In this document: positions 17,636-38,167 of the stretch, piece after piece
How the letters are laid out: each line of letters begins with the position of its first letter
Position numbering within the stretch: the first letter of the stretch is position 1
DNA from: Catellatospora sp. IY07-71
GTDB taxonomy: Bacteria; Actinomycetota; Actinomycetes; Mycobacteriales; Micromonosporaceae
Assembly (NCBI RefSeq): GCF_018326265.1
Contig: NZ_AP023360.1
Location: 3,091,501-3,155,500, forward strand
Length of the DNA: 64,000 nt
Direction of reading: 5' to 3'
Notes under the pieces: generated by a model
What the model saw: the letters and a program-made list of their open reading frames with translations, nothing else
What the model was told of the DNA's origin: nothing
Database searches by the model: none
Made by a program: the position numbers and the translations under genes

Positions 17636-17692
17636 GACTGGTCCATGCGAACTCCTGCCGCGCGGGTTGCACGGGCGGGCAGGAGAGATTAG

Positions 17693-18949
17693 TCAGGACC
17701 GCAGCCTGCGCCAACCCGCCTTGGCCAGGTCGAGGGTGGTCAGCGCCGCGCCGGCGAGCTGCCCGGCGGCCCGCAGCGCCGCCTTGCGCGGTCGGCGGCG
17801 CCCGTGCCGGGCCGCGAGCAGCCGCTGGAACAGGGCCGCGTGCCGGTCGGCGACCGCCGCCGGGTCGAACCGGGCCGCCTTGGCCAGCGCCGCCCGGCCC
17901 ATCGCCTGCCGCCGGTCCCCGTCGCCGATCAGGTCCAGCATCGCCGCGGCCAGCGCGGCCGGGTCGCGCGGCGGGACCAGCAGCCCGTCCACGCCGTGGT
18001 CGATGATCTCGCGGGGGCCGTGCGGGCAGTCGGTGGCGACCACGGGCAGGCCGACCCGCATGCCCTCGACGATGGTCATGCCGAACGACTCCATGCTCGA
18101 CGACACCACCAGCAGCGAGCCCTCGGCCAGGTGCGGCTCCAGCGGCGTGGTCACCCCCATGAGCTGTACATGCTCGCGCAGGCCGAGTTCGCCGATCAGG
18201 TCGTCGAGGGCGGCCTTGCGCTCGCCGCCGCCGTACAGTCGCAGCGTCCACTCCGGACGCCGCGCGCGGACCAGAGCGAACGCGCGGATCAGGTCGTCGT
18301 AGCGCTTGACCGCCGCCAGCCGTCCCGCGGCCACGACCACGGGCGCGGTCACCGGCGACGGCGGCACCGGCGTGGCGGGTACGCAGTTCGGTATCGCGCT
18401 GACGTGCACCCCAGGCAGGCGCATCAGCCGCCGGTACGCCGCCGCGTCGGCACGCGTGGTCGTGGTGACCGCGTCCAGCCGGGTGAAGTGGCGGCGCAGC
18501 GTGAACCGCAGCCGGTTGCTGTAGGACTGCAGCGTCAGGTGCTCCTGCGCGACGCGTACCAGCCGGGCCGGGGCCTGCCGGGCGATGTGGACGTTGAGCC
18601 CCGCCCTGGTCCCGACCACCACGTCGGCGTCGAGCCCGGCCAGGTAGCCGCCGATGCGCTCGTCGGTGAGCGCGCTGTACTGCTCGTACCGGTGCTCGGC
18701 CACCGGGAAGACCGCCGAGCGGCGGCTCATCCCGGGATGGTCGCCCTCGTAGCGGCCGTCGCGGCGCAGGTCCACCAGGTGCCTCAGGCGTGCCCCGGCG
18801 AGCCCGAAGTGCGGTTCGTCGCGGTGCCGGAACACCGAGACGACCTCGACCTCGTGCCCCGCCATGGCCAGCGCGTTGGCCAGGTTCGCGGTGGTACGCG
18901 CCGTGCCGCCGACCGCGTAGGCGTTGTGGACCAGGAACGAGATGCGCAT
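17693..18949 (-). CDS. GT4 family glycosyltransferase
   Basis: 418 residues. GT-B fold: N-terminal domain begins RISFLVHNAYAVGGTARTTANLANALAMAGHEV (donor-proximal glycine loop), and the C-terminal domain has VVAAGRLAAVKRYDDLIRAF, RLYGGGERKAAL and the E-x7-E signature ESFGMTIVEGMRVGLPVVATD. The HGPREIID motif following it also occurs in teichoic-acid or poly(sugar-phosphate) enzymes such as TagE/TarM-like GT4 proteins, so a role in wall-polymer glycosylation is possible. No sugar cluster is adjacent, so the acceptor cannot be inferred. Confidence 0.85.
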   Translation of the reverse strand: MRISFLVHNAYAVGGTARTTANLANALAMAGHEVEVVSVFRHRDEPHFGLAGARLRHLVDLRRDGRYEGDHPGMSRRSAVFPVAEHRYEQYSALTDERIGGYLAGLDADVVVGTRAGLNVHIARQAPARLVRVAQEHLTLQSYSNRLRFTLRRHFTRLDAVTTTTRADAAAYRRLMRLPGVHVSAIPNCVPATPVPPSPVTAPVVVAAGRLAAVKRYDDLIRAFALVRARRPEWTLRLYGGGERKAALDDLIGELGLREHVQLMGVTTPLEPHLAEGSLLVVSSSMESFGMTIVEGMRVGLPVVATDCPHGPREIIDHGVDGLLVPPRDPAALAAAMLDLIGDGDRRQAMGRAALAKAARFDPAAVADRHAALFQRLLAARHGRRRPRKAALRAAGQLAGAALTTLDLAKAGWRRLRS

Positions 18950-21987: not shown

Positions 21988-23072
21988 CCGCCACCCTCGA
22001 CGCCGCCACCCCCGTGCTGCGGCCGCACGCCGAGCAGCTGTACGCCGCCGAGCTGGCGCAGCTGGCCGAGGCCGACGACCGGCCCCGCCCGCCGGGCTGG
22101 CGGCTGTCCCCGCAGGCCGTGGTGACGTACCTGCTCGGCGACGGCAAGGACGTCAGCGCCAAGTACATCGGCCCGCGCCGGCTGATGGAGGTCGCCGTGG
22201 CGACACTGGCCACCGACCGGGCGCTGCTGCTGCTCGGCGTGCCCGGCACCGCCAAGACCTGGGTGTCGGAGCACCTCGCCGCGGCGATCAGCGGCGACTC
22301 GACGCTGCTGGTCCAGGGCACCGCGGGCACCCCCGAGGAGGCCATGCGCTACGGCTGGAACTACGCCCGCCTGCTCGCCGAGGGCCCGACCGCGGGCGCG
22401 GTGGTGGCCAGCCCGGTGATGCGGGCCATGCGCACCGGCGCGATCGCGCGCATCGAGGAGCTGACCCGGGTGCCCTCCGACGTGCAGGACACCCTGCTGA
22501 CCATCCTGTCGGAGAAGACGCTGCCGGTGCCGGAACTGGGTGAGGAGGTGCAGGCGGTCAAGGGCTTCAACGTCATCGCCACCGCCAACGACCGCGACCG
22601 GGGCGTCAACGAGCTGTCCAGCGCCCTGCGGCGCCGGTTCAACACGGTCGTGCTGCCCGTGCCGGGGACCGTGGATGAAGAGGTCGACATCGTGTCGCAG
22701 CGGGTCGCGTCGCTCGGCCGGGCCCTGGAGCTGCCCGAGGTGCCCGACGCGATCAGCGAGATCCGGCGCGTGGTGACCGTGTTCCGGGAGCTGCGCGAGG
22801 GCGTGACCGCCGACGGGCGGACCAAGCTGAAGAGCCCCAGCGGCACCCTGTCCACCGCCGAGGCGATCTCGGTGATGACCAGCGGCATGGCCCTGGCCTC
22901 GCACTTCGGCGACGGCACCGTCCGCGCCGCCGACGTCGCGGCGGGCATCCGCGGCGCGGTGGTCCGCGACCCCGTCTCCGACGCCGTCATCTGGCGGGAG
23001 TACCTGGAGACCGTGGCGCGCGAGCGCGACGGCTGGAAGGACTTCTACCGCGCCGCCCGGGAGGCGGAGTGA
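21984..23072 (+). CDS. MoxR-type AAA+ ATPase
   Basis: 362 residues. Walker A GVPGTAKTW at about 85-93, Walker B region AIARIEELTRVP at about 155-166, sensor 1 NVIATANDRDRGVNELSSALRRRF (arginine finger region) and a C-terminal lid. MoxR ATPases act as chaperone-like remodelers and nearly always pair with a VWA protein; here the VWA gene is two genes downstream. It overlaps both neighbours by 4 nt. ATP-driven remodeling of a partner or target by this complex is the likely function. Confidence 0.92.
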   Translation: MTATLDAATPVLRPHAEQLYAAELAQLAEADDRPRPPGWRLSPQAVVTYLLGDGKDVSAKYIGPRRLMEVAVATLATDRALLLLGVPGTAKTWVSEHLAAAISGDSTLLVQGTAGTPEEAMRYGWNYARLLAEGPTAGAVVASPVMRAMRTGAIARIEELTRVPSDVQDTLLTILSEKTLPVPELGEEVQAVKGFNVIATANDRDRGVNELSSALRRRFNTVVLPVPGTVDEEVDIVSQRVASLGRALELPEVPDAISEIRRVVTVFRELREGVTADGRTKLKSPSGTLSTAEAISVMTSGMALASHFGDGTVRAADVAAGIRGAVVRDPVSDAVIWREYLETVARERDGWKDFYRAAREAE

Positions 23073-25447
23073 GCTCCGACCGCGTCCACGTCCTGGGCGT
23101 ACGCCACCACGGCCCGGGTTCGGCCCGGGCCCTGGTGCGGGCGCTGGACGAGCTGCGCCCCGACCTGATCCTGGTCGAGGGCCCGCCGGAGGCGGACGGC
23201 CTGGTCGCGCTCGCCGCGCACGAGGACCTGGAGCCGCCGGTCGCGCTGCTGGCGTACCCGACGGCCGCGACGGCGGGCAAGGGCGGGGTGAAGGGGCGGG
23301 CGGCGTTCTGGCCGTTCGCCGTGTTCTCCCCGGAGTGGCAGGCGCTGCGCTGGGCGGTCGAGCACGACGTGCCGCTGCGCTTCTGCGACCTGCCCGCCGG
23401 ACACCGCTTCGCCGCTCAGGCCACCGAGGACGCCGGGACGGGTGGCGCGGAGCCGGACGGCCCGCTCGACGCGGCCGGGCCGCAGCCGGATCCGTCCACG
23501 GCGACTGCGCCCGTTGACGGAGCGGCGCCCGGCGCGGCGGGTGAGCCCGTAGTCGCGGACGAAGCCGAGCCCGCGGAGGGTGAGGACGCGCTGCGGGTGG
23601 ACCCGATCGCGGGGCTGGCCCAGGCCGCCGGGTACGACGACCCGGAGCGCTGGTGGGAGGACGTGATCGAACACCGGCGCGACGTGCCGCCGTTCGCCGC
23701 CGTGGCCGAGGCGATGGCCGCGGTGCGCGAGTCCGCGCCCGTCATCGGCGAGGACCTGGTACGCGAGGCGTACATGCGCCAGGTCCTGCGTGCGGCCCTG
23801 AAGGAGGGGCACCAGCGCATCGCCGTGGTCTGCGGCGCCTGGCACGTGCCCGCCCTCACCGGCGAGCTGCCCCCGGCCAAGGCAGACGCCGTGCTGCTCA
23901 AGGGCCTGCCCACGGTGCCCACGACGGTCACCTGGGTGCCGTGGACGCACGGGCGGCTGGCCTCCTGGAGCGGCTACGGCGCGGGCGTCACCGCGCCCGG
24001 CTGGTACCACCACCTGTTCACCGCCGAGGACCAGCCGGTCGAGCGCTGGCTGGTCGGCGTCGCCGGGGTGCTGCGCGGCGAGGACCTGCCCGTGTCCAGC
24101 GCTCACGTCATCGAGTCGGTCCGCCTGGCCGACACGCTCGCCGTGCTGCGCGGCCGCCCGCTGCCCGGCCTGGCCGAGGTCACCGAGGCGACCCGCGCCG
24201 TGCTGTGCGACGGCGACGACACCCGCCTGGAGCTGGTCCAGCGCAAGGTCGTGGTGGGGGAGCGGCTCGGCCGCGTCCCGGCCGACGCCCCGGCCGTCCC
24301 GCTGGCCCGGGACCTGGCCGCGACCGCCAAGCGCCTCAAGCTCGCCCAGCAGGCCCTGATCACCGACCACGACCTCGACCTGCGCAAGCCGAACGACCTG
24401 GAGCGCAGCCGGCTGCTGCACCGGCTGCGGCTGCTCGGCGTCGGCTGGGGCACCCCCGGCCAGCGCAAGGCCGGCAAGGGCACCTTCTGGGAGTCGTGGC
24501 GCCTGCAGTGGCACCCCGAGTACGCCGTAGACCTCATCGAGGCCAGCGCGTACGGCGTCACCGTCGAGCAGGCCGCCACCGCCAAGACCGTCGAGTCCGC
24601 CGCCGGGGCCGAGCTGCCGGTGCTGACCGGCCTGCTGGAGGCGTGCCTGCTCGCCGACCTGCCCGGCGCGCAGCCCCGGGTGCTCCAGGAGCTGAACGAC
24701 CGGGCCGCCGTCGACACCGACGTGGCCCAGCTGATGGCGGCCGTGCCCGCGCTGGCCCGCTCGCTGCGCTACGGCGACGTCCGCGCCACCAGCACCGAGG
24801 CGCTGGCCGAGGTGCTGACCGGCCTGGTCACCCGGATCCGGCTGGGCCTGCCCGGCGCGCTCACCGGCCTCGACGACGACGCGGCCCGCGCCCTGCGCGA
24901 GCACCTCGACGGCACGCACGAGGCCCTGAACCTGCTCGCCGACCGGCTGCCGCTGCGCGAGGAGTGGCTGGCGGCGCTGGCGCGGCTGGTGGACCGGCCG
25001 GACCTGCCCGGTCTGCTCGCCGGGCGGCTGCTGCGGCTGCTGCGCGACGCGGGCAGCTTCGACGCCGACGCGGTCGAGCTGCGCCTGTCCCGGGCGCTGA
25101 CGGTCGGCGTGCTGCCGACGACGGCGGCCGGGTATGTCGAAGGCTTCATCGCCGGCGGCGGGCTGCTGCTGGTGCACGACGAGGCGCTGCTGTCGCTGGT
25201 GGACCGGTGGCTGACCGGGCTCGCCCCGGACACGTTCACGGCGGTGCTGCCGCTGCTGCGGCGTACCTTCGCCGCCTTCGCCGCCCCCGAACGCCGCGCC
25301 GTCGGCGAAAAGGTCCGTCACCTGGGCTCCGGCGGCACCCGCCGCACCGGATCCGATCTGGACGATCTCGATCTGGACGAGGCCCGCGTGGCGCGGGTCG
25401 TGCCGACGCTGGAGCTGCTGCTGGCGGCGGGAAGGGGTACGCGGTGA
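23069..25447 (+). CDS. DUF5682 family protein with TraB/TIKI-like motifs
   Basis: 792 residues from a GTG overlapping the previous stop. N-terminal VHVLGVRHHGPGSARAL and ILVEGPPEAD, and near residue 255 VVCGAWHVPAL. These paired motifs (GxxH..GPGS.., E in VEGPPE, second GxWH) resemble the TIKI/TraB/EreA superfamily of putative metal-dependent hydrolases; this link is my inference from the motifs. Between residues about 118-175 is an acidic low-complexity insert. The C-terminal 400 residues are helical, repeat-like. It may be the effector enzyme of the five-gene system. Confidence 0.85.
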   Translation: MSSDRVHVLGVRHHGPGSARALVRALDELRPDLILVEGPPEADGLVALAAHEDLEPPVALLAYPTAATAGKGGVKGRAAFWPFAVFSPEWQALRWAVEHDVPLRFCDLPAGHRFAAQATEDAGTGGAEPDGPLDAAGPQPDPSTATAPVDGAAPGAAGEPVVADEAEPAEGEDALRVDPIAGLAQAAGYDDPERWWEDVIEHRRDVPPFAAVAEAMAAVRESAPVIGEDLVREAYMRQVLRAALKEGHQRIAVVCGAWHVPALTGELPPAKADAVLLKGLPTVPTTVTWVPWTHGRLASWSGYGAGVTAPGWYHHLFTAEDQPVERWLVGVAGVLRGEDLPVSSAHVIESVRLADTLAVLRGRPLPGLAEVTEATRAVLCDGDDTRLELVQRKVVVGERLGRVPADAPAVPLARDLAATAKRLKLAQQALITDHDLDLRKPNDLERSRLLHRLRLLGVGWGTPGQRKAGKGTFWESWRLQWHPEYAVDLIEASAYGVTVEQAATAKTVESAAGAELPVLTGLLEACLLADLPGAQPRVLQELNDRAAVDTDVAQLMAAVPALARSLRYGDVRATSTEALAEVLTGLVTRIRLGLPGALTGLDDDAARALREHLDGTHEALNLLADRLPLREEWLAALARLVDRPDLPGLLAGRLLRLLRDAGSFDADAVELRLSRALTVGVLPTTAAGYVEGFIAGGGLLLVHDEALLSLVDRWLTGLAPDTFTAVLPLLRRTFAAFAAPERRAVGEKVRHLGSGGTRRTGSDLDDLDLDEARVARVVPTLELLLAAGRGTR

Positions 25448-26595
25448 GCGACGAGGAGCGGCTGCGCCGCTGGCGGCTGGTGCTCGGCGGCGAAGGTGCC
25501 GAGGGCACCGGCACGACCCTGACCGGTGTGGATGCGGGCATGGACGCGGCCCTGGCCGCGCTCTACCGCGACGGCGACGGCGAGGGCGGCTCGTCGCGCA
25601 GCGCGGGCCTGGGCGGCTCCGCGCCGAAGGTGGCCCGCTGGCTCGGCGACATCCGGGAATACTTCCCGTCCACCGTGGTGCAGGTGATGCAGGCCGACGC
25701 GATCGAGCGGCTCAACCTGACCCGGCTGCTGGTCGAGCCGGAGATGCTGGAGGCCGTCGAACCGGACGTGCACCTGGTCGGCACGCTGCTGTCGCTGAAC
25801 AAGGTGATGCCCGACAAGGCCCGCGCCACCGCCCGCATGGTCGTCGCGAAGGTCGTGGCCGAACTGGAGCGCCGCGTCGCGCAGCGCACCCGCGCCGCGA
25901 TCACCGGCGCCGTCAACCGGGCCGCGCGGATCACCCGCCCGCGCCACCGCGACATCGACTGGAACCGGACCATCCGCGCCAACCTCAAGCACTACCAGGC
26001 CGAACATCGGACCGTGGTGCCGGAGCGCCTGATCGGCTACGGCCGGCAGACGAAGTCGGTGCAGCGTGACGTGGTGCTGTGCGTGGACCAGTCCGGCTCG
26101 ATGGCCGCGTCGGTGGTCTACTCCGGAGTCTTCGGTGCGGTGCTGGCCTCGATGAAGTCGCTGCGCACGTCCCTGGTCGTGTTCGACACCGCCGTGGTGG
26201 ACCTGACCGACCAGCTGCAGGACCCGGTCGAGGTGCTGTTCGGCACGCAGCTCGGCGGCGGCACCGACATCAACCGCGCCATCGCGTACTGCCAGGGCCT
26301 GATCACCCGGCCGCGGGACAGCATCTTCATCCTCATCTCCGACCTCTATGAAGGAGGAGTACGCCAGGAGATGCTGCGCCGGGTCGCCACCATGACCGCG
26401 GCCGGGGTGCAGGTGATCGTCCTGCTCGCACTGTCCGATGAAGGACAGCCGTCGTACGACCACGCCAACGCCGCGGCGCTGGCCGCGATGGGGGTGCCGT
26501 CGTTCGCGTGCACGCCGGACGCGTTCCCGGACCTGATGGCGGCTGCGATCGAACGGCGCGACCTGCGCACCTTCGTCGAGAAGATCGGCCGCTGA
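25444..26595 (+). CDS. VWA domain protein (CoxE/MoxR-partner type)
   Basis: 383 residues from the GTG at 25444, overlapping the DUF5682 stop. A helical N-terminal half (KVARWLGDIREYF ... VVAKVVAELERRVAQRTRAAITGAVN) precedes a von Willebrand A domain with an intact MIDAS: DQSGSM at about 215-220, threonine in GGGTDIN at about 273, and aspartate in ISDLYEGG at about 300. Such VWA proteins bind the MoxR ATPase and a metal-dependent ligand. Last gene of the operon. Confidence 0.92.
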   Translation: MSDEERLRRWRLVLGGEGAEGTGTTLTGVDAGMDAALAALYRDGDGEGGSSRSAGLGGSAPKVARWLGDIREYFPSTVVQVMQADAIERLNLTRLLVEPEMLEAVEPDVHLVGTLLSLNKVMPDKARATARMVVAKVVAELERRVAQRTRAAITGAVNRAARITRPRHRDIDWNRTIRANLKHYQAEHRTVVPERLIGYGRQTKSVQRDVVLCVDQSGSMAASVVYSGVFGAVLASMKSLRTSLVVFDTAVVDLTDQLQDPVEVLFGTQLGGGTDINRAIAYCQGLITRPRDSIFILISDLYEGGVRQEMLRRVATMTAAGVQVIVLLALSDEGQPSYDHANAAALAAMGVPSFACTPDAFPDLMAAAIERRDLRTFVEKIGR

Positions 26596-26780
26596 GCGGC
26601 GGATCAGGGGAAAGTCACGGATCCGGCCGCGCTGACCTGGGGAGGTTGACGGGCGCGGCCGGATCACACTGATCACACCGCGCGTGGGGCGTCCGGTCAA
26701 GTCCTCCGGACGTACGGGCCCGGCTGTCCGGAGCGCGGCGCGCCGGGCCGTTTCGGCGCTGTGTGCCGTCTGTTACGGCG

Positions 26781-28230: not shown

Positions 28231-28305
28231 GGGCGATTGGCGCAGCGGGAGCGCGCTTCCTTCACACGGAAGAGGTCACTGGTTCGATCCCAGTATCGCC
28301 CACCA
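28231..28305 (+). tRNA. tRNA-Val (anticodon CAC), integration target
   Basis: Complete cloverleaf with acceptor GGGCGAT/ATCGCCC, anticodon loop TTCACAC, T-loop GGTTCGATCC, and encoded ACCA end. The 3' part from base 28261 onward is duplicated at 36352, marking integration of the element in this gene while leaving the tRNA intact. Confidence 0.95.
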
Positions 28306-28335
28306 TCAGCTACAGCAGGTCAAAGCCCTTCTTCG
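28261..28335. repeat. attL direct repeat
   Basis: 75 bases starting in the anticodon loop of tRNA-Val(CAC) and running through the tRNA end and half of its terminator are identical to 36352-36426. Homology then continues for 24 more bases (28336-28359 = 36441-36464). Confidence 0.92.
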
Positions 28336-28345
28336 GAAGGGCTTT
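28322..28345 (+). terminator. tRNA-Val terminator inside attL
   Basis: Stem AAAGCCCTTC / GAAGGGCTTT with loop TTCG. The right-end copy has an extra 14-bp tandem duplication (36427-36440) inside the stem region. Confidence 0.75.
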
Positions 28346-28377
28346 CGCCGTCTTCGGGGTCGGCTGACGGCTCGATA

Positions 28378-28397
28378 GTCAGCGAAAAGTCAGCGAA
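28378..28397. repeat. Left 20-bp repeat (putative arm site)
   Basis: The sequence at 28378-28397 (two GTCAGCGA units joined by AA) occurs again in the same orientation at 36228-36247, just inside the other end. Candidate integrase or excisionase arm-binding site. Confidence 0.5.
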
Positions 28398-28749
28398 GGC
28401 GTCGCGGACCCGGCCGTCATGCTCACCCGAGTGGTGCGTGTACCGGTTGAGCCTCGTCGACGCCTGCTCGTGTCCCATGACCCGCTGGACGTCGTTGACC
28501 GGGACGCCGCTGGAGATCAGCCACGTGGCGTACGAGTGGCGGAGGTCATGGAACCTCAGCCCGCCGGCCGCGTTCGTGGCGACCAGGGCGACGGCCTCGG
28601 CACGGGTGCCAGTGTCGGTACTGCGCTCGATCCCGGCCGCGTCGACCCAGGAAGCGCGGAGCTTGCCCGGACCGATCTCCTCGATGCTGCCGAGTAGGCC
28701 GGCTTCGGCCAGGGCGGGACGCCAGACCCGAGAGCGGAACAGGGTCCGG

Positions 28750-29006
28750 GCGCAGCTTACGCGCCTTCTTCGCACAGGCCGGGCACTTGTTGTCCAGGGT
28801 GGCGCCGCACGGGATGTCGATGGTGGTGGTCTGGCCGGTGTCCAGGTCGGTGCGGCGCAGGCTGACCGGCCGGGTGCAGACGCCGGCCTCGGTGGCGATG
28901 TCCTTGACGACGTCCACGGAGCGGGGCATGAGGAGTCGGGCGGCCCGGGAGCCCGGCCGGGGCTCGGGGCCTCGGCCGGGCTCGGGGCGATCGTCGGGGC
29001 GGTCAT
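28750..29006 (-). pseudogene. AICE replication initiator (Rep), N-terminal fragment
   Basis: The frame from ATG 28929 reads MPRSVDVVKDIATEAGVCTRPVSLRR and IPCGATLDNKCPACAKKARKLR, which matches the zinc-ribbon-like start (C-G-x-T-L ... C-x-x-C-A) of RepSA-type initiators. In the +1 frame an upstream ATG at 29006 begins MTAPTIAPSPAEAPSPGRAPG, and the two halves join near 28945 in a G/C run, so a one-base shift probably split the natural N-terminus. Everything after KKARKLR has been deleted and replaced by the integrase fragment. Confidence 0.75.
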
Positions 29007-29092
29007 CGTGCGCCCGCTGTCGTGCTGTCGTGGGCGGTGGCCTGTGCAGATCTGGGGCCGTCGAAGGGCGCGGACTGGCCTAGCGTGTGTGC

Positions 29093-29509
29093 ATGCAGAC
29101 CGTGGCGCCGCACGCCTCCGACAGCGACTTGATCGGCTGTATCGAGGAGTGGGTTGGCCTCCTTGCCGCTGGCAGCTTCGTGGCGGCGGCGCAATTCTTG
29201 TGTCCGCCAGCCGAGGTTTCGCGCGGCGAGCCCTGGACGGCGGAGAGTCTGGAGACCTACATCGCCGACTACGGCTGGTGGGAGCCACTGGACGACGGCA
29301 GACGTATGCATGTCACCTCGGCCGCTGGCGCTGGCGCTGGCGGTGACCTGACTCCTCACCGTGACGTCATCCGCTACGACGACCGGCCGCCGCGCATCGA
29401 ATTCAGCCTCCCGCTCAACGGTGAGTGGAGCGACCTCACCGCTGTTTTCCATCTGGTGGAGGTTGATGGCGCATGGGCCTTTGATCTCTACGACCTTCGT
29501 GTCTTCTAG
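29093..29509 (+). CDS. Hypothetical protein, AICE cargo
   Basis: 138 residues from the ATG at 29093 (a GTG at 29087 is possible). The only intact plus-strand gene in the left half of the element. Aromatic-rich segments (YIADYGWWEPLDDGRRMHV, RIEFSLPLNGEWSDLTAVF, VDGAWAFDLYDLRVF) suggest a small alpha+beta, SnoaL- or DUF7668-like domain, but no family is certain. Its GC content is below that of the chromosomal genes. Confidence 0.65.
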   Translation: MQTVAPHASDSDLIGCIEEWVGLLAAGSFVAAAQFLCPPAEVSRGEPWTAESLETYIADYGWWEPLDDGRRMHVTSAAGAGAGGDLTPHRDVIRYDDRPPRIEFSLPLNGEWSDLTAVFHLVEVDGAWAFDLYDLRVF

Positions 29510-29577: not shown

Positions 29578-30479
29578 TCATCGCGCACCCGCCATCGTGT
29601 CGGCGTGGCTGTTCGGCGAAGGCGCAGACGGGCGGGCGGCTAGGGTCAGCGGCCCGAGCCCACGACGCGCCGGGACCGGGGTAGTGGTGCGCAGGTGGCG
29701 GAGCAGTTCGCCTGCGGTGCCGTTGGCGACGCGCAGCCGTGCCCGCAGCTCGTCACGGGTGATCGACCGGCCGGTGGCCTTGAGGTAGGCGGCAGCCTCC
29801 TGCCGGGCGCGGGTGACCAGTTCGCCGTGACGACCTGGTCCACGTCCTCGCTGTCGTCTGCGTCGTCCTCGACGGCGAGGACGGCCGGGGACGCCGCGGG
29901 GACGGCCGCAATGGTCACCGCGCGCGGCTCCTGGATGGGCGGTGCCGCCACGGTCGGCGCAGCCGTGGTGAGCGGGGCGGGTACGGGGTGGGGACGATCG
30001 TGGGGACGGTCCGGGACGATCACCGGCGCAGGCTCCGGGTCCAGTGCCGGGGTCTTGCCCAGCACCAGCTTGGCGAGGGCGGCGAAGGCGAGGGCGGCGA
30101 AGGCGAGGGCGGGGATGACGGAGACGAGTCCGCCGGAAAAGCCCGGCTTCGCCACGGCCCGCTGCGCGGTCACCGACAGCACCAGCGCCGCGCCCAGGAG
30201 CGCCGTAGGCGATGGGCTGTCCAGCGGCGCGGCGGCGGCGCATGACGAGCAGGCGGCGATGGGGACGAGTTCGGTGATGACGGCGTTCGCCCAGCCGAAC
30301 CAGTCCCCGGTGCTGGACGGGCTGTTGTGCATGGTCCAGTCGTGGACGTGCGTGAACGACGCTGCTCCGGCGGCGCCGCCGACGGCGAGGAGGATGAGGA
30401 CGAGGACAGCGCCCTCGATGCGGGCGGTTTTGCGGGTCCGCGCCGGCACCGTGGTGCCGGGGATGGCGTGGCTGGTCAT
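29578..30479 (-). pseudogene. DUF2637 (Spd-like) membrane protein with several frameshifts
   Basis: The ATG at 30479 is preceded by GGAGGA and overlaps the upstream stop (ATGA). Transmembrane helices VLVLILLAVGGAAGAASF and LLGAALVLSVTAQ and the motif DWFGWANAVITELVPIAA identify DUF2637, a spreading protein family on actinomycete plasmids and AICEs. A stretch of about 20 codons (CSSCAAAAPLDSPSPTA) is out of frame; the correct frame there reads LVMRRRRAAGQPIAYGA, and the frame returns afterwards, so two compensating indels occurred. Near 29825 another shift moves the natural C-terminus (QEAAAYLKATGRSITRDEL) to a different frame. Confidence 0.8.
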
Positions 30480-30667
30480 CGTAGTCCTCCGGTCAGTGGG
30501 GTGCGGCGGGCGGCGGTGGCGTAGACCCGGACCCCGCCCCGGCGGGCGGGCTCGGGGTCGGAGACGTTGGTGAGAGTGAGGACCTGGTCCAGGACGGCCA
30601 GGGTCTTGGCGACGGCGTGCAGGTCGCCCAGCAGCCGCAGCTGCACCGGCCCGGTCGGTGTGGTCAT
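30476..30667 (-). CDS. Small AICE protein between traB and DUF2637
   Basis: 63 residues. Its start ATG overlaps the TraB stop and its stop overlaps the DUF2637 start (both ATGA), so three genes are translationally coupled. Sequence QLRLLGDLHAVAKTLAVLDQVLTLTNVSDPEPARRGGVRVY is of a type often found at this position in AICEs. Function unknown, probably accessory to transfer. Confidence 0.7.
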   Translation of the reverse strand: MTTPTGPVQLRLLGDLHAVAKTLAVLDQVLTLTNVSDPEPARRGGVRVYATAARRTPLTGGLR

Positions 30668-31344
30668 GCCGCCACCTCCGGCGCGTAGGCGGCGGCGAGG
30701 TCGGCCAACTGCGGGTCGGTGTGGAAGGAGAACCGGACCCGGTGCGGCTCGGGCGAGCCGTCCAAGCGCACGAACCCCACACCCGGCAGCGCGACCGGGA
30801 TCAGGTCGCAGATGGCGCCGCGGTCGCGGGAGCCGTCGCCGAGGATCAGATCGGCCTGCTCGGGTTCGGTCAGCCGCAGCGCGATCCGGGTCGGGAACAG
30901 GTCCCGGAACGGCAGCACGTCCTTGCGCGGGTCCTGCACCGCCGCGACGACGTGCACGCCGACGGCGCGGCCCTGGGACAGGATCAGAGACAGGGCGTCC
31001 TTGATCCGGTCGCGGGTCTTCTTGTCACCGACGTACGCGGTCAGCGCCGCGATCTCGTCGACCAGGATCACCAGCGTCGGGTCGTCCACGGTCGCGGTGT
31101 GCTGGCGGGCACGGCCCCACAGCGCAGCAGCACGGCGGCGCAGCACCTTCACCGCGTCCTCCAGGTCCCCGGCCATCGCGTCGGGGTCCTCGAAGCTGAA
31201 CCGGACGAACAGCGGAGCACCGGCGGCCAGTTCCATGCCGCCCTTGGGGTCGAACGCCCACAGTTGCACCAGCCCGGCCCGGACGCTGCCCGCGAGGGCG
31301 GACATGATCGACCACAGGACCGAGCCCTTCCCAGAGTCGGTGGC
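30664..31344 (-). pseudogene. TraB/FtsK-like DNA translocase, truncated at Walker A
   Basis: The preserved part has LVQLWAFDPKGGMEL, the Walker B segment PTLVILVDEIAALTAYV, SLILSQGRAVGVHVVAAVQDPRKDVLP and the C-terminal LPGVGFVRLDGSPEPHRVRF of AICE transfer ATPases (double-stranded DNA pumps). The frame starts inside the P-loop: ATDSGKGSV instead of GATGSGKGSV, and upstream codons have no homology. The N-terminal half, including the membrane part, is missing and is replaced by a creatininase fragment on the other strand. A functional pump is very unlikely. Confidence 0.85.
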
Positions 31345-31728
31345 CCGGCGATCAGCTACGTCCTTTCCAGCATCGTGCAAGAGGCGTCGATCGACGGACC
31401 ACGGATGACGCTCTTCCCCCAGGGCGCCGACTGGGCACGAGCCCGTGACGCCGCCGGCCTGGAGACCAACTCTCACGAGGACATGCACGCAGGCGAGCTC
31501 GAGACCTCAATCCTGCTGCACGTCACTCCGAGCGTGGTGCAACCAGGCAACGAGACAGCCGACCACATCGCCGGCGATCGCACCCACATGCTGAGCCTCG
31601 GCCTCGCCAAGTACACATCAACCGGCGTGGTTGGCCGTCCATCCCTGGGAACGGCGGACAAGGGAGCGAGGGCAATAACGAATTTCGTCGATGGCTTCGC
31701 GAGCTACTACGGCGTTCTGACACGCTGA
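31336..31728 (+). pseudogene. Creatininase-family C-terminal fragment
   Basis: The frame from 31336 reads SYVLSSIVQEAS, MTLFPQGADWARARDAAG, HEDMHAGELETSILLHV and GVVGRPSLGTADKGA, which is the C-terminal half of creatinine amidohydrolase/MftE-like metalloenzymes, including the metal-ligand region around HEDMHAGE. The N-terminal half with the first histidine/aspartate ligands is missing. The fragment abuts the broken TraB gene head-on, so an illegitimate recombination at about 31340-31350 joined them. Confidence 0.75.
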
Positions 31729-31752
31729 CACCTGTCTAGATATCGCGATTCG

Positions 31753-31998
31753 TCAAGCGTCATCGTCCGCTGAACGCCAGCCCTGGCCACGGCGTCGATC
31801 GCTCCAGGCGCGTACGGTCTCTGGCCTCCACACCCGCTGCTGGCCGATCTTCCGATCTTCGGCCGGCGCCTGACCGCGGGAAACATACGAGGTCCAAGTG
31901 TCCCGAGCTACGCCGAGGAACTGGGCGCAGTTCTCAGCCGTCCACCAGTCTTCGGGCAGGCTCATCGCATCTGGGTTCGCGTCGGCTCGGTCCGGCAT
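31753..31998 (-). CDS. HTH excisionase-like protein (Xis/AlpA type)
   Basis: About 81 residues from the ATG at 31998; other ATGs at 32022, 32010 and 31965 are possible and none has a clear ribosome binding site. WWTAENCAQFLGVARDTWTSYVSRGQAPAEDRKIGQQRVWRPETVRAW matches the winged helix-turn-helix of small excisionases (helix 1-2, then R/W-rich wing). In an AICE it would bind arm sites and promote excision. It is intact although its integrase is not. Confidence 0.75.
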   Translation of the reverse strand: MPDRADANPDAMSLPEDWWTAENCAQFLGVARDTWTSYVSRGQAPAEDRKIGQQRVWRPETVRAWSDRRRGQGWRSADDDA

Positions 31999-32180
31999 AA
32001 ATCGTGACATTAGCGTGGGCACTCGACTACGTCACTACGCAGTCCACCCATCGCGCCATCGCTGACGGGCCGCGATTAGGCGCATGGCCCCCGGCACAAC
32101 CCAGCAGCGACTGAGTCTGGCACGGTTATTAACCTGCCAACGCATAACCCAATCGGGCGCCATGCTAAACACTCTTCCCC

Positions 32181-34904
32181 CTACGGCACAAATGGGAGTC
32201 CCGCATCATACTCCCGGTAATGCATGGAACACACCCACAGATAGTCGCCAGACGGTGCTTGTACTCGGCGCAGACCTCCGAACCGCTGAACTGGATCTAG
32301 CCCCTGAAGTAGTGCCCTGATGGCCCTTGCAGCCTCGCCTTCTGCTCTAGTCAAGACCTCTTGTCCATCATCAGTTAAAGGTTGCTGCTGATCGGCAATT
32401 GAGGCTGGAAGTCGTTCGATCAGCGTCTTCATGAGGTCAATTTCATGCTGGATGGACTTGAGCCGATCCTCATCGAACATGACACCAAGGACTGCGCCAG
32501 CGATAGGAGCGCCAGCTTTGAGCACTCGAAACGTTAGCGAAATGTATGGTCCCACCTTCGCGAGCCATCGCGTTGGCTTCTCGAACTCATATACAGCGTC
32601 TGATAGAGCGTGATGAGCACCGGCCTGCTCGCACCACAGCGTCATCCGAAGGGTATGCCGACCCGCTAGGCGCCGCAATGCAGGAGTACTGAGAGGAGCT
32701 AGCGTGAAGAGCCGTGGACAATCCGCAACTTCAATACTAGTAGCTTTCAACAACCTGCGGAGCAAGTCCGAGGCATCAGCCGCTTGACGGGATGCTTCGA
32801 CGGCCTGGAGTTCGAGCCGCTCGACACCGCTTCGCACATCAGTGAGGTCGATTGCTAGTTGGTCGAGGCGCGAGTGAAGTCCCAGCTTTGGCGTAGCGAA
32901 TCCAGTCAACAACAGTGTCACGTCATGGTCGGTTTGGCAATTTAGGCATGGGTAGCTATGTCCACCTCGCTGACGATAGCCGAGAAGACCCTCAAGCGGA
33001 AACTGCCCATCACATCTATTGCCGCCCGCAAACTTCGTGGGGCACGGGACATGCAACCTGTAGGTTAAACCGGGCCAGCGACGCCTAATCAGGTCCTCAA
33101 CACTATCCCGCAATACGTTAAAGAACATGTCTGGCGAAGGAGCGCGTACCTCGATCAGCAGATGCCGCTCGGATGACGTTAGCTCCAGCAGGGCTTCCGA
33201 CTCGTATAGTGCGATCGGGTGACGCAGAAACACACCAGCACGCCAATGTCTGCGGGTTGAGGCCAAATGGTGGCGTACGGTCAGCCATGCAATAAGACCC
33301 GGAGCGGGTTCCGCAAGTTCGCAGATCAGTCGCAGTACATAGACATTGTTGGCAAGTGGAGTAGTGGACTCCCAAGTAAGTAGCGGCCGCTCATACGGTA
33401 CTAGTTGAGCAATCAAGCTGCGGTGCTCATCCTCGGCCAGCCTGTAGGAGACGTCGAATTTCTCCATCAAACGCAAGAAATACGGATGGAACTGCGTTGG
33501 GTACGATAGCCCATTCGGGCGATCAGACCAAATGTCTCTAAGTCGCGAGTGATCAAGTACTCCCATTTCGTTGCGAGTGTGCTCGTCTTCGAGGACGGCC
33601 CCAATCGCCTTCGTCAACCATTCCGGGTCTAGAACGACGACATCTCGCAGCCCGTCGTCATCACTGTAATAAATGATAACGCCCAGGTCGTGCAGTAAGT
33701 TGGCGAGAGCCGTAATTTCATCATCTGGCAGTTCGTTGCCACGACATATATTTACAAAGCGCTGGTATTTAATGTATGGGTGCCTTCTCGCAATGCTGCG
33801 AACTTCCTCGCGGGCCGTCACCCACCGACGGCTCAGGGCTTGCCCCATCTGGGGCAACCTAGAGGCGTGTTCTGCGAGCTTTCCTCTCAATTGCTGAACT
33901 CCGTAACCCGTGCGACTATCCACCACGAAATGACCCCTGAGCATTCCGGGGAACATATGCATAAGTCGTGGATAGTCAAGCTCAGCTCTCCGCTCTTCGC
34001 CATGTGTCGCAACAATCATCGTCGGAGCGTCCGGTCCTACCCGCAAACGAATGCGACGCAGCCAGCCTTCGACCTCGTTTTGCTCTTGTCCCTCACGTGG
34101 ATTCCATACCACCAAATATAGAGCTCGCTGGCTAAAGAAGAACTGATGAGTTATTCGGTAGACCTCTTGTCCCCCAAAGTCCCACATATGCAGCGTAAGC
34201 TGTATATCGGAGTCGTCGGGAGATGCTAGTCTTAGTTGATTGACCTCAATTCCGTGGGTTGTTGATCTGTTGTGAACAAAGGGTTTCTCATTTAGTGCTG
34301 CTACTAACGACGTTTTCCCTACATTTCCTTCTCCGACGAGGACTACTTTTGCCTCATGAAGTTGAATGGCGTCATTCAAGCTGCGCAGATAGGCGGAGGT
34401 CCCAGCGGTTCCCAGACTCCCCGAGCTATTGACGCCATCATGGAAGCGTGTCCCTTCCGCAATCAGCCTCAACCCGCGCTTGACCATGTCGGCCAGTTCG
34501 GGTGGGAGCCGCCTAATCGGATTGTTGCTGATGTCGAGAACTCGTAGCTTCTTCAGCTTCGCGATTCCGCTGGGCAAATCACGAAGGAGGTTGTCATTAA
34601 GGTCGAGTTCCTCTAACTGACCCAGGCTCCATATTTCGTCGGGCAGGTACTCAAGCCGGTTGCCATAGAGCTCCAGTACGCGCATGCTTCGGTATCGTCC
34701 GATTTCCGGCGGCAGCGACTCCAGTCCCTGTCCCGATAGGGACAACACCCCATTCTGATATGCCCAGTCCAGCTCGTCGGGCGACAGTTCGGTCATGGTG
34801 ACAACCTTGGCTACGAAAAGGGGTGCGGCGACCTGCAGCAGATGTGCCCATTGACCATACAGGACCGTTGCGGCCGTCCTGACTTCTAAGATGATAGTAG
34901 ACAT
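32181..34904 (-). CDS. LRR-Roc-COR (ROCO family) GTPase
   Basis: 907 residues; an internal ATG at 34796 with AAGG eight bases upstream gives a more typical start (MTELSPDELDW). Residues about 50-145 contain leucine-rich repeats (LESLPPEIG, LEYLPDEIW, LRDLPSGIA, IRRLPPELA). The Roc GTPase follows: G1 GEGNVGKTS (191-199), G3 WDFGGQE (241-247), G4-like ATHGEE (about 299-304). The COR region covers about 370-560, and a cysteine cluster (PCPTKF, NRCDG, PCLNCQ) lies near 640-690. The last 200 residues are helical. Two sampled lines count 57% and 45% GC, well below the host. The function of bacterial ROCO proteins is mostly unknown. Confidence 0.88.
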   Translation of the reverse strand: MSTIILEVRTAATVLYGQWAHLLQVAAPLFVAKVVTMTELSPDELDWAYQNGVLSLSGQGLESLPPEIGRYRSMRVLELYGNRLEYLPDEIWSLGQLEELDLNDNLLRDLPSGIAKLKKLRVLDISNNPIRRLPPELADMVKRGLRLIAEGTRFHDGVNSSGSLGTAGTSAYLRSLNDAIQLHEAKVVLVGEGNVGKTSLVAALNEKPFVHNRSTTHGIEVNQLRLASPDDSDIQLTLHMWDFGGQEVYRITHQFFFSQRALYLVVWNPREGQEQNEVEGWLRRIRLRVGPDAPTMIVATHGEERRAELDYPRLMHMFPGMLRGHFVVDSRTGYGVQQLRGKLAEHASRLPQMGQALSRRWVTAREEVRSIARRHPYIKYQRFVNICRGNELPDDEITALANLLHDLGVIIYYSDDDGLRDVVVLDPEWLTKAIGAVLEDEHTRNEMGVLDHSRLRDIWSDRPNGLSYPTQFHPYFLRLMEKFDVSYRLAEDEHRSLIAQLVPYERPLLTWESTTPLANNVYVLRLICELAEPAPGLIAWLTVRHHLASTRRHWRAGVFLRHPIALYESEALLELTSSERHLLIEVRAPSPDMFFNVLRDSVEDLIRRRWPGLTYRLHVPCPTKFAGGNRCDGQFPLEGLLGYRQRGGHSYPCLNCQTDHDVTLLLTGFATPKLGLHSRLDQLAIDLTDVRSGVERLELQAVEASRQAADASDLLRRLLKATSIEVADCPRLFTLAPLSTPALRRLAGRHTLRMTLWCEQAGAHHALSDAVYEFEKPTRWLAKVGPYISLTFRVLKAGAPIAGAVLGVMFDEDRLKSIQHEIDLMKTLIERLPASIADQQQPLTDDGQEVLTRAEGEAARAIRALLQGLDPVQRFGGLRRVQAPSGDYLWVCSMHYREYDAGLPFVP

Positions 34905-35260
34905 GGCGCTTCGTGAACGTTTCTGAGCCCGAACCGTTTAGCCATAAGGCCGGGGCCGATGGGGCTAGCGACGATCAGACAAACCGATGATTTGGACCTG
35001 CTACTGGTGTTCTCGGAGTGAGCAACCAATCGCTTAACTCTGGAAGCAAGACGATGAGCCTCGGTAGCGATGTCGGTACGAGCCTTCGCATGTGTGCCTT
35101 CACATGACAAGGCGCAACGCGGGCTGTCGCCGTGGGCAGCCTGCCGAGTTGTGCTGTTCAAGGATCAAGGGCCGCGCAAGCGCGGCCGCGCCCCCGCATG
35201 CCCGCGCTGCGGCCTGGAGGCCGGTCGCGGGCACGCGGGCGCGCCAGCTTGCCGGGCCGG
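34905..35260. other. Intergenic region upstream of the ROCO gene
   Basis: 356 bases with no convincing gene. The left part (to about 35100) has the lower GC of the ROCO gene and should hold its promoter; the right part is GC-rich with a small hairpin GGCCGCG/CGCGGCC at 35170-35187. A 91-codon minus-strand frame (34886-35161) has no ribosome binding site or recognisable pattern. Confidence 0.5.
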
Positions 35261-35716
35261 TCAGATGTCCACGCCGTGCTTCTGCAGCCGCGACACGATC
35301 CCCGACTCCTTCCGGCCCATGTCGTTCGCGATCTCAGCGACCGTGTCGCCGGCTTCGAACCGCGTCAGCAGCTGCGCGTCCAGGTCATCGGTCCACGGCG
35401 CATAGGCGTTGGGGCGCTCCCGGCGCTTCTCGGCCAGGTTGAAACGCTTGCGGCGGCCGCCATAGCTCTCGACCAGGGCGGCCAGCTCGGCGGTGAGGAG
35501 CCGAATGACGGTGGGCAGTTCATCGGGCGCCAGGGTGCCGCGTAGCTCGGTGAGGACCTGGCCGTCGCTGTCGCAGCTGACCATCGAGAAGTCAGCTCGT
35601 TGGTCGCCGGTCGGGGAGACATCCAGCTGGTAGGTGCGTCCGGTCGCGGCGGCCTCGCGGTGCAGGAGCACGGTCGGAGGTTGTGCCTCAGCGGGGAGCC
35701 AATCTGCGTCGTCCAT
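35261..35716 (-). CDS. Hypothetical protein with C-terminal helix-turn-helix
   Basis: 151 residues. The first 100 residues are an alpha/beta region (TVLLHREAAATGRTYQLDV, LTELRGTLAPDELPTVIRLL). The C-terminus WTDDLDAQLLTRFEAGDTVAEIANDMGRKESGIVSRLQKHG is a GcrA/sigma-70 region 4-like helix-turn-helix, a shape also found in ATP-dependent helicase tails. It lies upstream of ROCO on the same strand, separated by 356 bases, and may regulate AICE or cargo genes. Confidence 0.75.
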   Translation of the reverse strand: MDDADWLPAEAQPPTVLLHREAAATGRTYQLDVSPTGDQRADFSMVSCDSDGQVLTELRGTLAPDELPTVIRLLTAELAALVESYGGRRKRFNLAEKRRERPNAYAPWTDDLDAQLLTRFEAGDTVAEIANDMGRKESGIVSRLQKHGVDI

Positions 35717-35821
35717 GTGCTGAACGTATCGACAGACGCTGACATTGTGAGGGTGCGGTTTGAAGACCTCGGGGCGCTGCCCCGAACCCCGGCCCTCCCT
35801 CGGTGATCGGTGGGTCGGTGG

Positions 35822-35875
35822 GCGGGATCTCCTCGGTCGGGCAGGCCTGCCCCTGCCCGACCGAGGAGATCCCGC
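35822..35875. repeat. 23-bp perfect inverted repeat inside the AICE
   Basis: Arms 35822-35844 and 35853-35875 are perfect reverse complements around an 8-nt loop. It lies between two minus-strand genes (starts at 35716, ends at 35917), so it may terminate the small gene's transcript. Confidence 0.8.
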
Positions 35876-36105: not shown

Positions 36106-36227
36106 GATCTACCTCCAGTTCCCCGTACCAGCCTTGTGCCCAACGATCCGCAACACCAGGAGGCGCGACCCGTAAGAATCGGTTGCGGGGGGTGACGGTG
36201 GGGAGTAAGCGTGATCATCGCAGGGGA

Positions 36228-36247
36228 GTCAGCGAAAAGTCAGCGAA
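36228..36247. repeat. Right 20-bp repeat (putative arm site)
   Basis: Identical to 28378-28397, same orientation, 104 bases inside attR. In the excised circle it would lie on the other side of the core from the left copy. Confidence 0.5.
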
Positions 36248-36351: not shown

Positions 36352-36464
36352 TTCACACGGAAGAGGTCACTGGTTCGATCCCAGTATCGCCCACCATCAG
36401 CTACAGCAGGTCAAAGCCCTTCTTCGAAAGCCCTTCTTCGGAAGGGCTTTCGCCGTCTTCGGGG
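36352..36464. repeat. attR with tRNA-Val 3' remnant
   Basis: 36352-36426 repeats attL exactly; 36352-36396 is the 3' part of tRNA-Val with CCA, not a functional gene because the 5' half is missing. A 14-bp tandem duplication (36427-36440) interrupts the second homology block. The remainder of 36106-36640 shows no gene apart from the right arm repeat. Confidence 0.9.
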
Positions 36465-36571
36465 ATGGCTGGCGGCTGACGAGGCCGGGTGCCTCGCCCG
36501 CAGGGGCTCGCACGTAGAGCCGGCGGAGTTCCGTCACTCGAAGGAGTCACCGGCTGGTTAAACCGGGTGAT

Positions 36572-36583: not shown

Positions 36584-36640
36584 TTGCTGCAGTGTGGGTC
36601 GCTGCGATGAGTTTTGTCGGTGCGGGCGGTCAGTCTTGGT

Positions 36641-38167
36641 ATGACGACGACTGCCGCCAAGTCCACCGGACCTGACCGTCTAGTCCCCCCACTACCCGAT
36701 CGAGGTACCGTGCCCAGCCAGCTGCTCGACTCACCCGCCAAGTCCGCGACTCCGATCTCAGGTGGCACGCCGCCCGTGGTCCGGCTGCTGGTGCTGGCCA
36801 CGTTCATCGTGATCCTCAATGAGACGATCATGATCAACGCGATCCCGAACCTGATGGACGCGTTGAAGATCACAGAACAGACCGCGCAATGGCTGTCGAC
36901 CGCCTTCATGCTGACCATGGCCGCGGTGATCCCGATCACCGGGTGGTTCCTGCAGCGGGTGTCCACCCGGGGCGCCTACGCCACGGCGATGGGCCTGTTC
37001 CTGCTCGGCACCGCATCGGCCATCGTCGCGCCGAGCTTCGAGGTGCTCCTCGGCGCCCGCATCATCCAGGCGTCGGGCACGGCGGTGATGATGCCGCTGC
37101 TGATGACCACGCTGATGCATGTGGTGGCCGAGCGCGACCGGGGCAGGGTGATGGGCAACGTCAGCCTGGCGATCTCCGTCGCGCCCGCGATGGGCCCGGC
37201 GCTGTCCGGGGTGATCCTCAACTTCGGGTCCTGGCGCCTGCTGTTCGCCGTCGTGCTGCCCATCGCCGCCGCGATCACGTGGGGCGGCCTGAAGCAGCTC
37301 AAGAACGTGGGCGAGCCCGAGGTCGGCACCATCGACTGGTTCAGCGTGGCGCTGGCCGCGCTCGGCTTCGGCGGCCTGGTCTACGGGCTCAGCCGGTTCC
37401 AGGGCGGCAACATCGGCCTGGCCGCCGGCATCGTCGCAGCGGGCCTGGCCGCCATCGCGGTCTTCGTCTTCCGCCAGCTGTCGCTGCAGCGACACGGATC
37501 GCCGCTGATGGACCTGCGCACGCTCAAGCACCGCACCTACACCGTCGCGCTCATCCTGATGTCGGTCGCCTTCATGGCGATGCTCGGCTCGATGATCCTG
37601 CTGCCGCTGTACCTGCAGAATCTGCGTGGGCTCAGCGCCCTGCAGGCCGGGCTGCTGGTCATGCCCGGCAGCCTCGCCATGGGCCTGCTCGGGCCGACCG
37701 TCGGCCGCCTGTTCGACCGGTTCGGCGGCCGGGTGCTGGTCGTCCCCGGCGCGATCGCCATCAGCCTCTCGCTCGCCGGGTTCACCCAGGTCTCGATGAC
37801 CATGCCGTTCTGGCAGCTTCTCGCGCTGCACGCGCTCTTGATGATCGGCCTTGCCGCGACCTTCACCCCGGTCTTCACGCTGGGGCTCGGTGCGGTCCCG
37901 CCGCACCTGTACGCCCACGGCAGCTCGATCCTGGGCACGCTGCAGCAGGTGGCCGCGGCCTTCGGCACCGCGCTCGTGGTCACGGTGATGAGCGCGCGAG
38001 CCGAGTCGCTGAAGGCGGAGGGGGTCGCGGCCGCGGCCGCCAGCCTCGACGGTATGCGGCTGGCGTTCATCATCGGCGTGGTCCTGTCCGTCGCCGTGAT
38101 CATCACCGCGCTGCTGCTCCCGGCCCGAGCCGACAACGGCGCCCAGGGCGTGGGGCACGGCCACTGA
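36641..38167 (+). CDS. DHA2-family MFS drug exporter
   Basis: 508 residues from the ATG at 36641. About fourteen hydrophobic segments, motif A-like GRLFDRFGGRVLV after helix 8 and an N-terminal half with FIVILNETIMINAIPNLMDALKITEQTAQWLSTAFMLTMAAVIPITGWF, typical of LmrB/EmrB-like proton-driven exporters. Substrate is unknown. It is the first chromosomal gene to the right of the integrated element. No adjacent TetR gene is seen. Confidence 0.9.
   Translation: MTTTAAKSTGPDRLVPPLPDRGTVPSQLLDSPAKSATPISGGTPPVVRLLVLATFIVILNETIMINAIPNLMDALKITEQTAQWLSTAFMLTMAAVIPITGWFLQRVSTRGAYATAMGLFLLGTASAIVAPSFEVLLGARIIQASGTAVMMPLLMTTLMHVVAERDRGRVMGNVSLAISVAPAMGPALSGVILNFGSWRLLFAVVLPIAAAITWGGLKQLKNVGEPEVGTIDWFSVALAALGFGGLVYGLSRFQGGNIGLAAGIVAAGLAAIAVFVFRQLSLQRHGSPLMDLRTLKHRTYTVALILMSVAFMAMLGSMILLPLYLQNLRGLSALQAGLLVMPGSLAMGLLGPTVGRLFDRFGGRVLVVPGAIAISLSLAGFTQVSMTMPFWQLLALHALLMIGLAATFTPVFTLGLGAVPPHLYAHGSSILGTLQQVAAAFGTALVVTVMSARAESLKAEGVAAAAASLDGMRLAFIIGVVLSVAVIITALLLPARADNGAQGVGHGH

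Follow-up and report, generated by a model that had tools for sequence, protein, structure and literature searches.

The open reading frame at 32181-34904 of the window (the whole 64-kb stretch of DNA that was analysed) encodes an LRR-Roc-COR (ROCO) protein that is intact and related to LRRK2, the human protein of Parkinson's disease. Its gene is a laterally acquired, actinobacterial one, and in this soil-type actinobacterium it is cargo of a degenerate 8.1-kb pSAM2-type AICE in tRNA-Val. The reading that we prefer, with a probability of about 0.45, is that the protein would act inside the cell as a self-contained receptor that detects phage or other invaders. The features on which the analysis is based are collected in Table 1.

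Table 1. Position, strand and basis of assignment of the features in the window.
Feature	Position	Strand	Basis or remark
tRNA-Val (CAC), integration site	28231..28305	+	ARAGORN, Rfam; conserved in 10/10 same-genus genomes
attL-side direct repeat, 84 nt	28261..28344	+	96% identical to 36352-36435
Integrase C-terminal remnant	28323..28748	-	PF00589 positions 125-170 of 172, E 3.5e-12
Doubled GTCAGCGAA, possible integrase arm site	28377..28397	+	identical 21 nt at 36227-36247
RepSA N-terminal remnant	28549..29005	-	PF20199 positions 2-137 of 438, E 9.1e-12
Spd-like gene remnant, frameshifts at 29823, 30203, 30252	29578..30482	-	comparison with sibling AICE
FtsK/TraB C-terminal remnant	30664..31356	-	PF01580 E 5.5e-10; sibling FtsK residues 263-496 of 496, 94%
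Creatininase C-terminal fragment	31342..31725	+	PF02633 positions 115-236 of 238, E 9.5e-17
Small HTH gene directly 3' of ROCO	31753..31998	-	HTH_17 E 1.5e-4, below family cut-off
ROCO gene (LRR, Roc, COR-A, COR-B, C-terminal domain)	32181..34904	-	ORF list, Pfam, PDB sequence matches
ROCO C-terminal domain (residues 661-907), conserved	32181..32924	-	alignment A2, 35 rows
151-aa gene at far end of element	35261..35716	-	96% identical copy in sibling AICE
Second doubled GTCAGCGAA, inside other element end	36227..36247	+	sequence match to 28377-28397
attR-side direct repeat	36352..36435	+	chromosome common with G002 picks up at 36532

An earlier note on this DNA had described a fully open 2.7-kb gene with a P-loop and a WDFGGQE switch. 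This is borne out by 907 stop-free codons, by the P-loop GEGNVGKT (G1) from residue 191 and by WDFGGQE (G3) at residues 241-247. Judged by eye, translation more likely starts at Met37 (34796, with AAGG ahead), which would give a protein of 871 aa. Pfam placed the LRR at about residues 54-140 (LRR_4 and LRR_8 above the cut-off, three strict repeats by motif count), an N-terminal position that is a trait of the prokaryotic group 1 of Roco proteins. Roc (186-301, E 1.2e-24), COR-A (359-502, E 2.9e-40) and COR-B (524-667, E 4.1e-20) follow in the order of the Roco family, each above its Pfam cut-off. The top match among PDB sequences was an LRR-only structure, and the best of those spanning Roc and COR were 4wnr (E 1e-45), 6hlu (CtRoco of Chlorobaculum tepidum, E 5.2e-40) and LRRK2 (E 1.7e-35). 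CtRoco and LRRK2 share the LRR-Roc-COR arrangement; the window protein differs from them in having few LRRs, the G4 motif THGE, a different C-terminal domain and no kinase. G4 (residue 303, 33996-33998) most commonly takes the form THxD; Asp occupies this position in 19 of 28 rows of the alignment, and Ala, Glu, Asn, Ser or Gly takes its place in the others. The G-domain thus appears not to be fully canonical, and some members of the family may be less strict in their preference for guanine. The four COR-B cysteines C621, C631, C653 and C656 are complete in 19 of 28 rows. No other place in the 8.6-Mb genome was matched by the ROCO query at E <= 0.001.

The C-terminal domain is conserved among relatives. 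P730, C758, E759, W780, D870 and L878 are invariant in the 35 rows of alignment A2, while H765, C892 and H895 are jointly present in 21 rows and jointly missing in 14, with C729 following this set in all rows but one. This suggests a metal site that was gained or lost as a unit; since the pattern sorts by two clades, it may reflect a single change. Residues 788-812 belong to the most hydrophobic segments. Pfam gave no match for the domain as it stands in the window, and in the A2 rows it named 21 families, each in a single row (best E 0.026), and a search of PDB sequences found no credible relative (best E 0.52). The domain may be among the at least 24 kinds of C-terminal domain mentioned in the AP-GTPase part of PMC8195603. 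A scan with the single sequence found the query alone in 394 genomes of the class; the 35-row alignment performed better and gave 49 rows in 354 family genomes (7 candidates scored per genome), of which 43 lie in long ROCO frames, 3 lie in partial ROCO matches and 3 are lone fragments. The lone fragments, in short frames at G392:C1:2096380, G251:C18:4376 and G416:C1:8086198, are likely remnants of lost ROCO genes.

The 84-nt repeat that bounds the element starts within tRNA-Val, its second copy lies 8091 bases further, and the doubled GTCAGCGAA has 4 matches in the window where 0.40 were expected. As the earlier note had stated, the mobility genes are broken: int, rep and ftsK are each truncated, as they would not be in a functional AICE, and spd is frameshifted. 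What remains, tRNA att repeats around AICE gene remnants, is the picture of a decayed AICE. The C-terminal part of the integrase, 80.6% identical at the nucleotide level to an element occupying this site in the same-genus genome G005, is fused with the RepSA N-terminus into one run. The gene at 29578-30482 and its counterpart in the sibling element described below are presumably Spd-like. A 140-aa gene lies between the rep and spd remnants (29087-29509, plus strand; DUF7668 below the cut-off, E 1.1e-4) and is missing from the sibling. Next to the 151-aa gene there is an inverted repeat (35822-35875) whose 24-nt arms match perfectly and are set 6 nt apart, a possible origin or transfer site, of which similar pieces occur in the sibling. 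ARAGORN also predicted a 98-nt tRNA-Pro at 28928-29025, which was not confirmed by Rfam and is probably an artefact.

The left flank is colinear with the window as far as tRNA-Val in all ten same-genus genomes (82-97% identity). Colinearity stops there in eight of them and runs on into a related integrase end in G009 and G005. In the nearest genome, G002, the right flank resumes at 36532 of the window with 92% identity; there it is separated from the tRNA by about 41 kb, and these 41 kb (C28; loci L065, L075 and L076) hold a further att copy. By these comparisons the tRNA-Val site is a hot spot of integration, and the MFS gene at 36614-38167 belongs to the chromosome. The left flank shared by all ten genomes also holds a gene pair (about 23000-26600) ending in a protein that was named VWA-like by eye.

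By way of the 96% identical copy of the 151-aa gene, a second AICE of the same family was found in the same genome (L145, G000:C1:1312001-1332000). It is apparently intact, with genes for an integrase (399 aa), RepSA (585 aa, E 4.2e-98), an assumed Spd (no Pfam match) and FtsK (496 aa), cargo and the 151-aa gene. Three stretches of the window are shared with it: 28749-29005, the start of RepSA (93.0%), 29630-31356 (90.6%) and 35141-35843 (93.7%). Three frameshifting indels separate the two copies of spd, and in blastn the integrase of the sibling gave no match to the integrase remnant of the window. The 3.8 kb at 31357-35140, with the creatininase fragment, the HTH gene and ROCO, stand where the sibling has 4.7 kb made up of the N-terminal half of FtsK and its cargo. 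Together with the att repeats and the gene remnants, this comparison upholds the view of the ROCO gene as cargo of a dead AICE, and with the sibling as a guide nearly the whole element can be read. The cargo of the sibling (L145 12434-13764) consists of a TIGR04255 gene (E 1.3e-12) and an adjoining 188-aa gene that matches the PADLOC candidate PDC-M32A (E 8.7e-8) over the last third of the model alone; the two are a possible two-gene defence cargo.

Published pSAM2-type and decayed AICEs are alike in the order att-tra-rep-int-att, in cargo that varies within a family, and in leaving behind partial integrase, cargo and direct repeats, as far as described in the parts of PMC9513070 and PMC3218068 used here. 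The window element differs from the pSAM2-type AICEs covered there in its Micromonosporaceae host, in having a sibling in the genome and in its ROCO cargo. The terms LRR and leucine-rich are absent from the main text of PMC9513070, which deals with Streptomyces AICEs. The 151-aa gene was considered as an AICE marker and rejected: 14 further loci with homologues (L146-L159) have no match to FtsK, RepSA or Spd, and L158 alone has an integrase match, a weak one.

The low GC content noted earlier was confirmed, with 54.7% and a GC3 of 0.57 against neighbour medians of 73.3% and 0.95 (42 called neighbours). Among 13 measured ROCO genes, seven, including that of the window, lie about 10 GC points or more under their neighbours, and six do not. 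The earlier note had also concluded that an intact frame in a decaying island implies selection, and this is not established for the window copy. The remnants carry four frameshifts over about 2.3 kb, a density at which 4.7 would be predicted for the 2721 nt of ROCO, with a probability of 0.009 for none; leaving out spd gives 1.9 and 0.15, in a crude estimate that takes age and rate as equal. The argument from intactness is weak for this copy.

These figures bear on the first alternative, namely that the creatininase fragment, the HTH gene and ROCO are a chromosomal piece that recombined into the AICE, has not yet decayed and is useless to the host. The remnants of the element are still 90-94% identical to the sibling and the frame of the FtsK remnant is still open, the GC3 of ROCO is far from that of the host, escape from frameshifts by luck has the probability of 0.15 if spd is left out, and cargo pseudogenes are frequent in the Streptomyces AICEs treated in the consulted part of PMC9513070. 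The value of 0.009 obtained once spd is counted speaks against such a recent passenger, as does the retention of the P-loop and most switch motifs, and we regard it as unlikely, although worth keeping in mind.

For the family, purifying selection is observed in relatives. The earlier note had proposed dN/dS between homologues as a check, and it is below 1 (0.20-0.68) in 15 pairs of relatives above 62% identity, pairs at or below this value having been dropped; the window gene is in none of them, and sequences of genus g12 are used repeatedly, in most of the pairs. The LRR has a higher dN/dS than the rest of the protein in 13 of 14 pairs (L089/L092 has no LRR split) and in all six hand-chosen pairs that have no sequence in common, though repeat alignments can mislead and a misaligned LRR would inflate its rate.

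ROCO is scattered among the 354 family genomes (the own genome included): with 2 candidates scored per genome, a match at E <= 1e-60 was found in 32 and one below 1e-200 in 11, and the best near-whole-length identity was 53%. Thirteen plasmid records matched, none spanning 80% of the query and all below 60% identity; one phage record matched in the LRR part only, and three viral contigs matched at 25-26%. Nineteen ROCO loci were drawn from named genomes. In a quick tree of 37 proteins (calculated without a mixture model, with L095 and the rows from outside the class omitted) the genus labels need 19 changes where the minimum for 15 labels is 14, and the members from the genus of the window (G000, G008 and G009) are on separate branches. 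The flanks of the G008 gene match separate places in other same-genus genomes. This is not the pattern of a core gene with vertical phylogeny, but the eleven rows of genus g12 form one clade and their inheritance looks vertical.

To follow carriage, 54 loci were probed with FtsK, RepSA, Spd and integrase of the sibling and with two other integrases; 53 are distinct, as L163 is the same gene as L003, four are partial ROCO matches (L161, L197, L198, L199) and several are on short contigs (L012, L172, L199). RepSA and FtsK lie near ROCO in three of the 53 (L160 in G208, L161 in G028 and L164 in G258), other recombinases or integrases adjoin it in two (L010, L051), weak traces occur in two (integrase scraps in L168, a distant FtsK match in L181), and 46 have none of the probed mobility genes. 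That homologues lie in AICEs is partly supported: two are end cargo of AICEs bounded by repeats, and in G028 a ROCO fragment at a contig edge is about 9 kb from a third AICE, for which att sites were sought and none found. With 4 candidates per genome and a strict cut-off in the AICE scan, the figure of two in 53 is not a claim of enrichment in AICEs.

In G208, tRNA-Met and a 43-nt exact repeat 16.7 kb off enclose int, RepSA, Spd, FtsK and a ROCO gene of 1680 aa; int and RepSA are open, and FtsK matches in two overlapping pieces, so that a frameshift is possible. A DUF4365 gene (L201 8805-9890, E 3.4e-14) adjoins ROCO in this element. In G258, two stretches at about 2101-2462 and 17485-17839, which share exact colinear matches as long as 46 nt, bracket ROCO, FtsK, Spd, RepSA and int. 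When stretches of this contig were paired at random, the longest match was 15 nt, except where they overlapped that repeat. Here int, RepSA and FtsK are all open. ROCO lies at the int-distal end and on the same strand as the transfer genes in the window, G208 and G258, and the three AICE-borne genes fall on three branches of the tree. AICE carriage and the mixing in the tree indicate that the ROCO family moves laterally, at times by AICE, while most copies are in ordinary chromosome.

The other possibility, that homologues lie in defence islands, found no support in the flanks that were scanned. At 14 loci no neighbour gene was common to more than three, an ABC-type gene recurring in L002, L005 and L011, the two Lentzea loci having several genes in common, and the other cases being single pairs. 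Pfam was applied to 10 flanking proteins of nine loci and PADLOC to 8 proteins; in the G208 and G258 regions, 10 proteins, including the ROCO of G208, were run against both. Apart from one STAND NTPase, the nine loci were flanked mostly by proteins of ordinary kinds such as a transporter, regulators and a monooxygenase, and on these scans the defence-island reading was set aside. The gene upstream of the ROCO homologue in L008 (6208-9792) encodes an nSTAND1-WD40 protein (E 2.1e-120), another conflict-type architecture.

According to the second alternative, the protein is a signalling GTPase of host physiology (growth, development or cell surface) with no tie to invaders. Dictyostelium Roco proteins work in development, as covered in the parts of PMC6337361 used here, the g12 genes make up a single vertical-looking clade and most ROCO loci are ordinary chromosome; against this stand the patchy occurrence even within the genus of the window, the lack of a neighbour common to more than three of 14 loci and the faster LRR, and we consider this account improbable. 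Still less probable is a gene that primarily serves the element by barring competing AICEs or phages from carrier cells or by tuning transfer, with any host benefit secondary. For this account, ROCO recurs at the same AICE end and strand and the tRNA-Val site is contested by other insertions in relatives; against it, most relatives are off AICEs and the gene persists here in a dead carrier.

The receptor reading was already published as a prediction: section 15 of PMC8195603 (eLife 2021) treats LRR-Roc-COR (AP-GTPase) proteins as counter-invader or immune receptors. The systems described there share with ours the order LRR, AP-GTPase (Roc), COR and further C-terminal region as well as a fast LRR, the trait found here in relatives, with the window copy outside the comparison. 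They are reported there to have paralogues in some genomes and, as noted above, many kinds of C-terminal domain, where a single unnamed domain occurs throughout the lineage here; AICE carriage is absent from the consulted portions, and in the present case ROCO is AICE cargo. In brown algae, ROCO genes were proposed as immune receptors with diversifying LRRs (PMC11378527, in the part consulted).

In the mechanism that we propose, the N-terminal LRR would bind a protein associated with the invader. Binding would turn the closed Roc-COR dimer into monomers that are open and carry GTP, by analogy to CtRoco, for which the consulted part of PMC11052575 describes a closed dimer in the nucleotide-free state, an open monomer with GTP and an LRR swing of about 135 degrees. 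The C-terminal domain, newly exposed, might then stop growth or kill the infected cell. Since the LRR is fast, the C-terminal module is an addition and carriage on mobile elements is patchy, the published invader-receptor reading is the simplest. An architecture like that of the predicted AP-GTPase class and the CtRoco cycle favour it by analogy; the LRR rates, the genus-mixed distribution, the recurrence as cargo of two other AICEs and, in the sibling slot, the gene resembling the end of PDC-M32A beside TIGR04255 also speak for it. On the other side, PADLOC-DB 2.0.0 has no system model for ROCO beyond short weak P-loop matches (best E 0.0035), 46 of 53 loci are without a probed mobility gene amid mostly ordinary scanned flanks, the C-terminal domain appears unlike any known effector and G4 deviates from the commonest form. 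More tentatively, we picture a GTP-switched, single-gene, NLR-like immune receptor of actinobacteria, with a fast LRR as sensor, a Roc-COR of relaxed G4, a new C-terminal effector with a metal site of C758, H765, C892 and H895, spread by AICEs and outliving its carrier.

The ROCO family itself was known. New here are the comparison of cargo slots and the finding that ROCO recurs on two other AICEs; to these come the C-terminal domain with its conserved Cys/His set, the unusual G4 and selection at family level with a faster LRR. An experimentally tested anti-phage ROCO was not found in the literature among the matches listed, mainly open-access. Bacterial Roco proteins serve as structural models for LRRK2; the 2019 Roco review, in the part consulted, states that very little is known on bacterial and archaeal roles (PMC6337361). 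The window ROCO is a good candidate for a bacterial immune receptor, predicted from sequence and context, and the copies carried by AICEs provide naturally mobile single-gene constructs for direct tests. If the receptor reading is true, this would be the first defence role for bacterial ROCO proteins.
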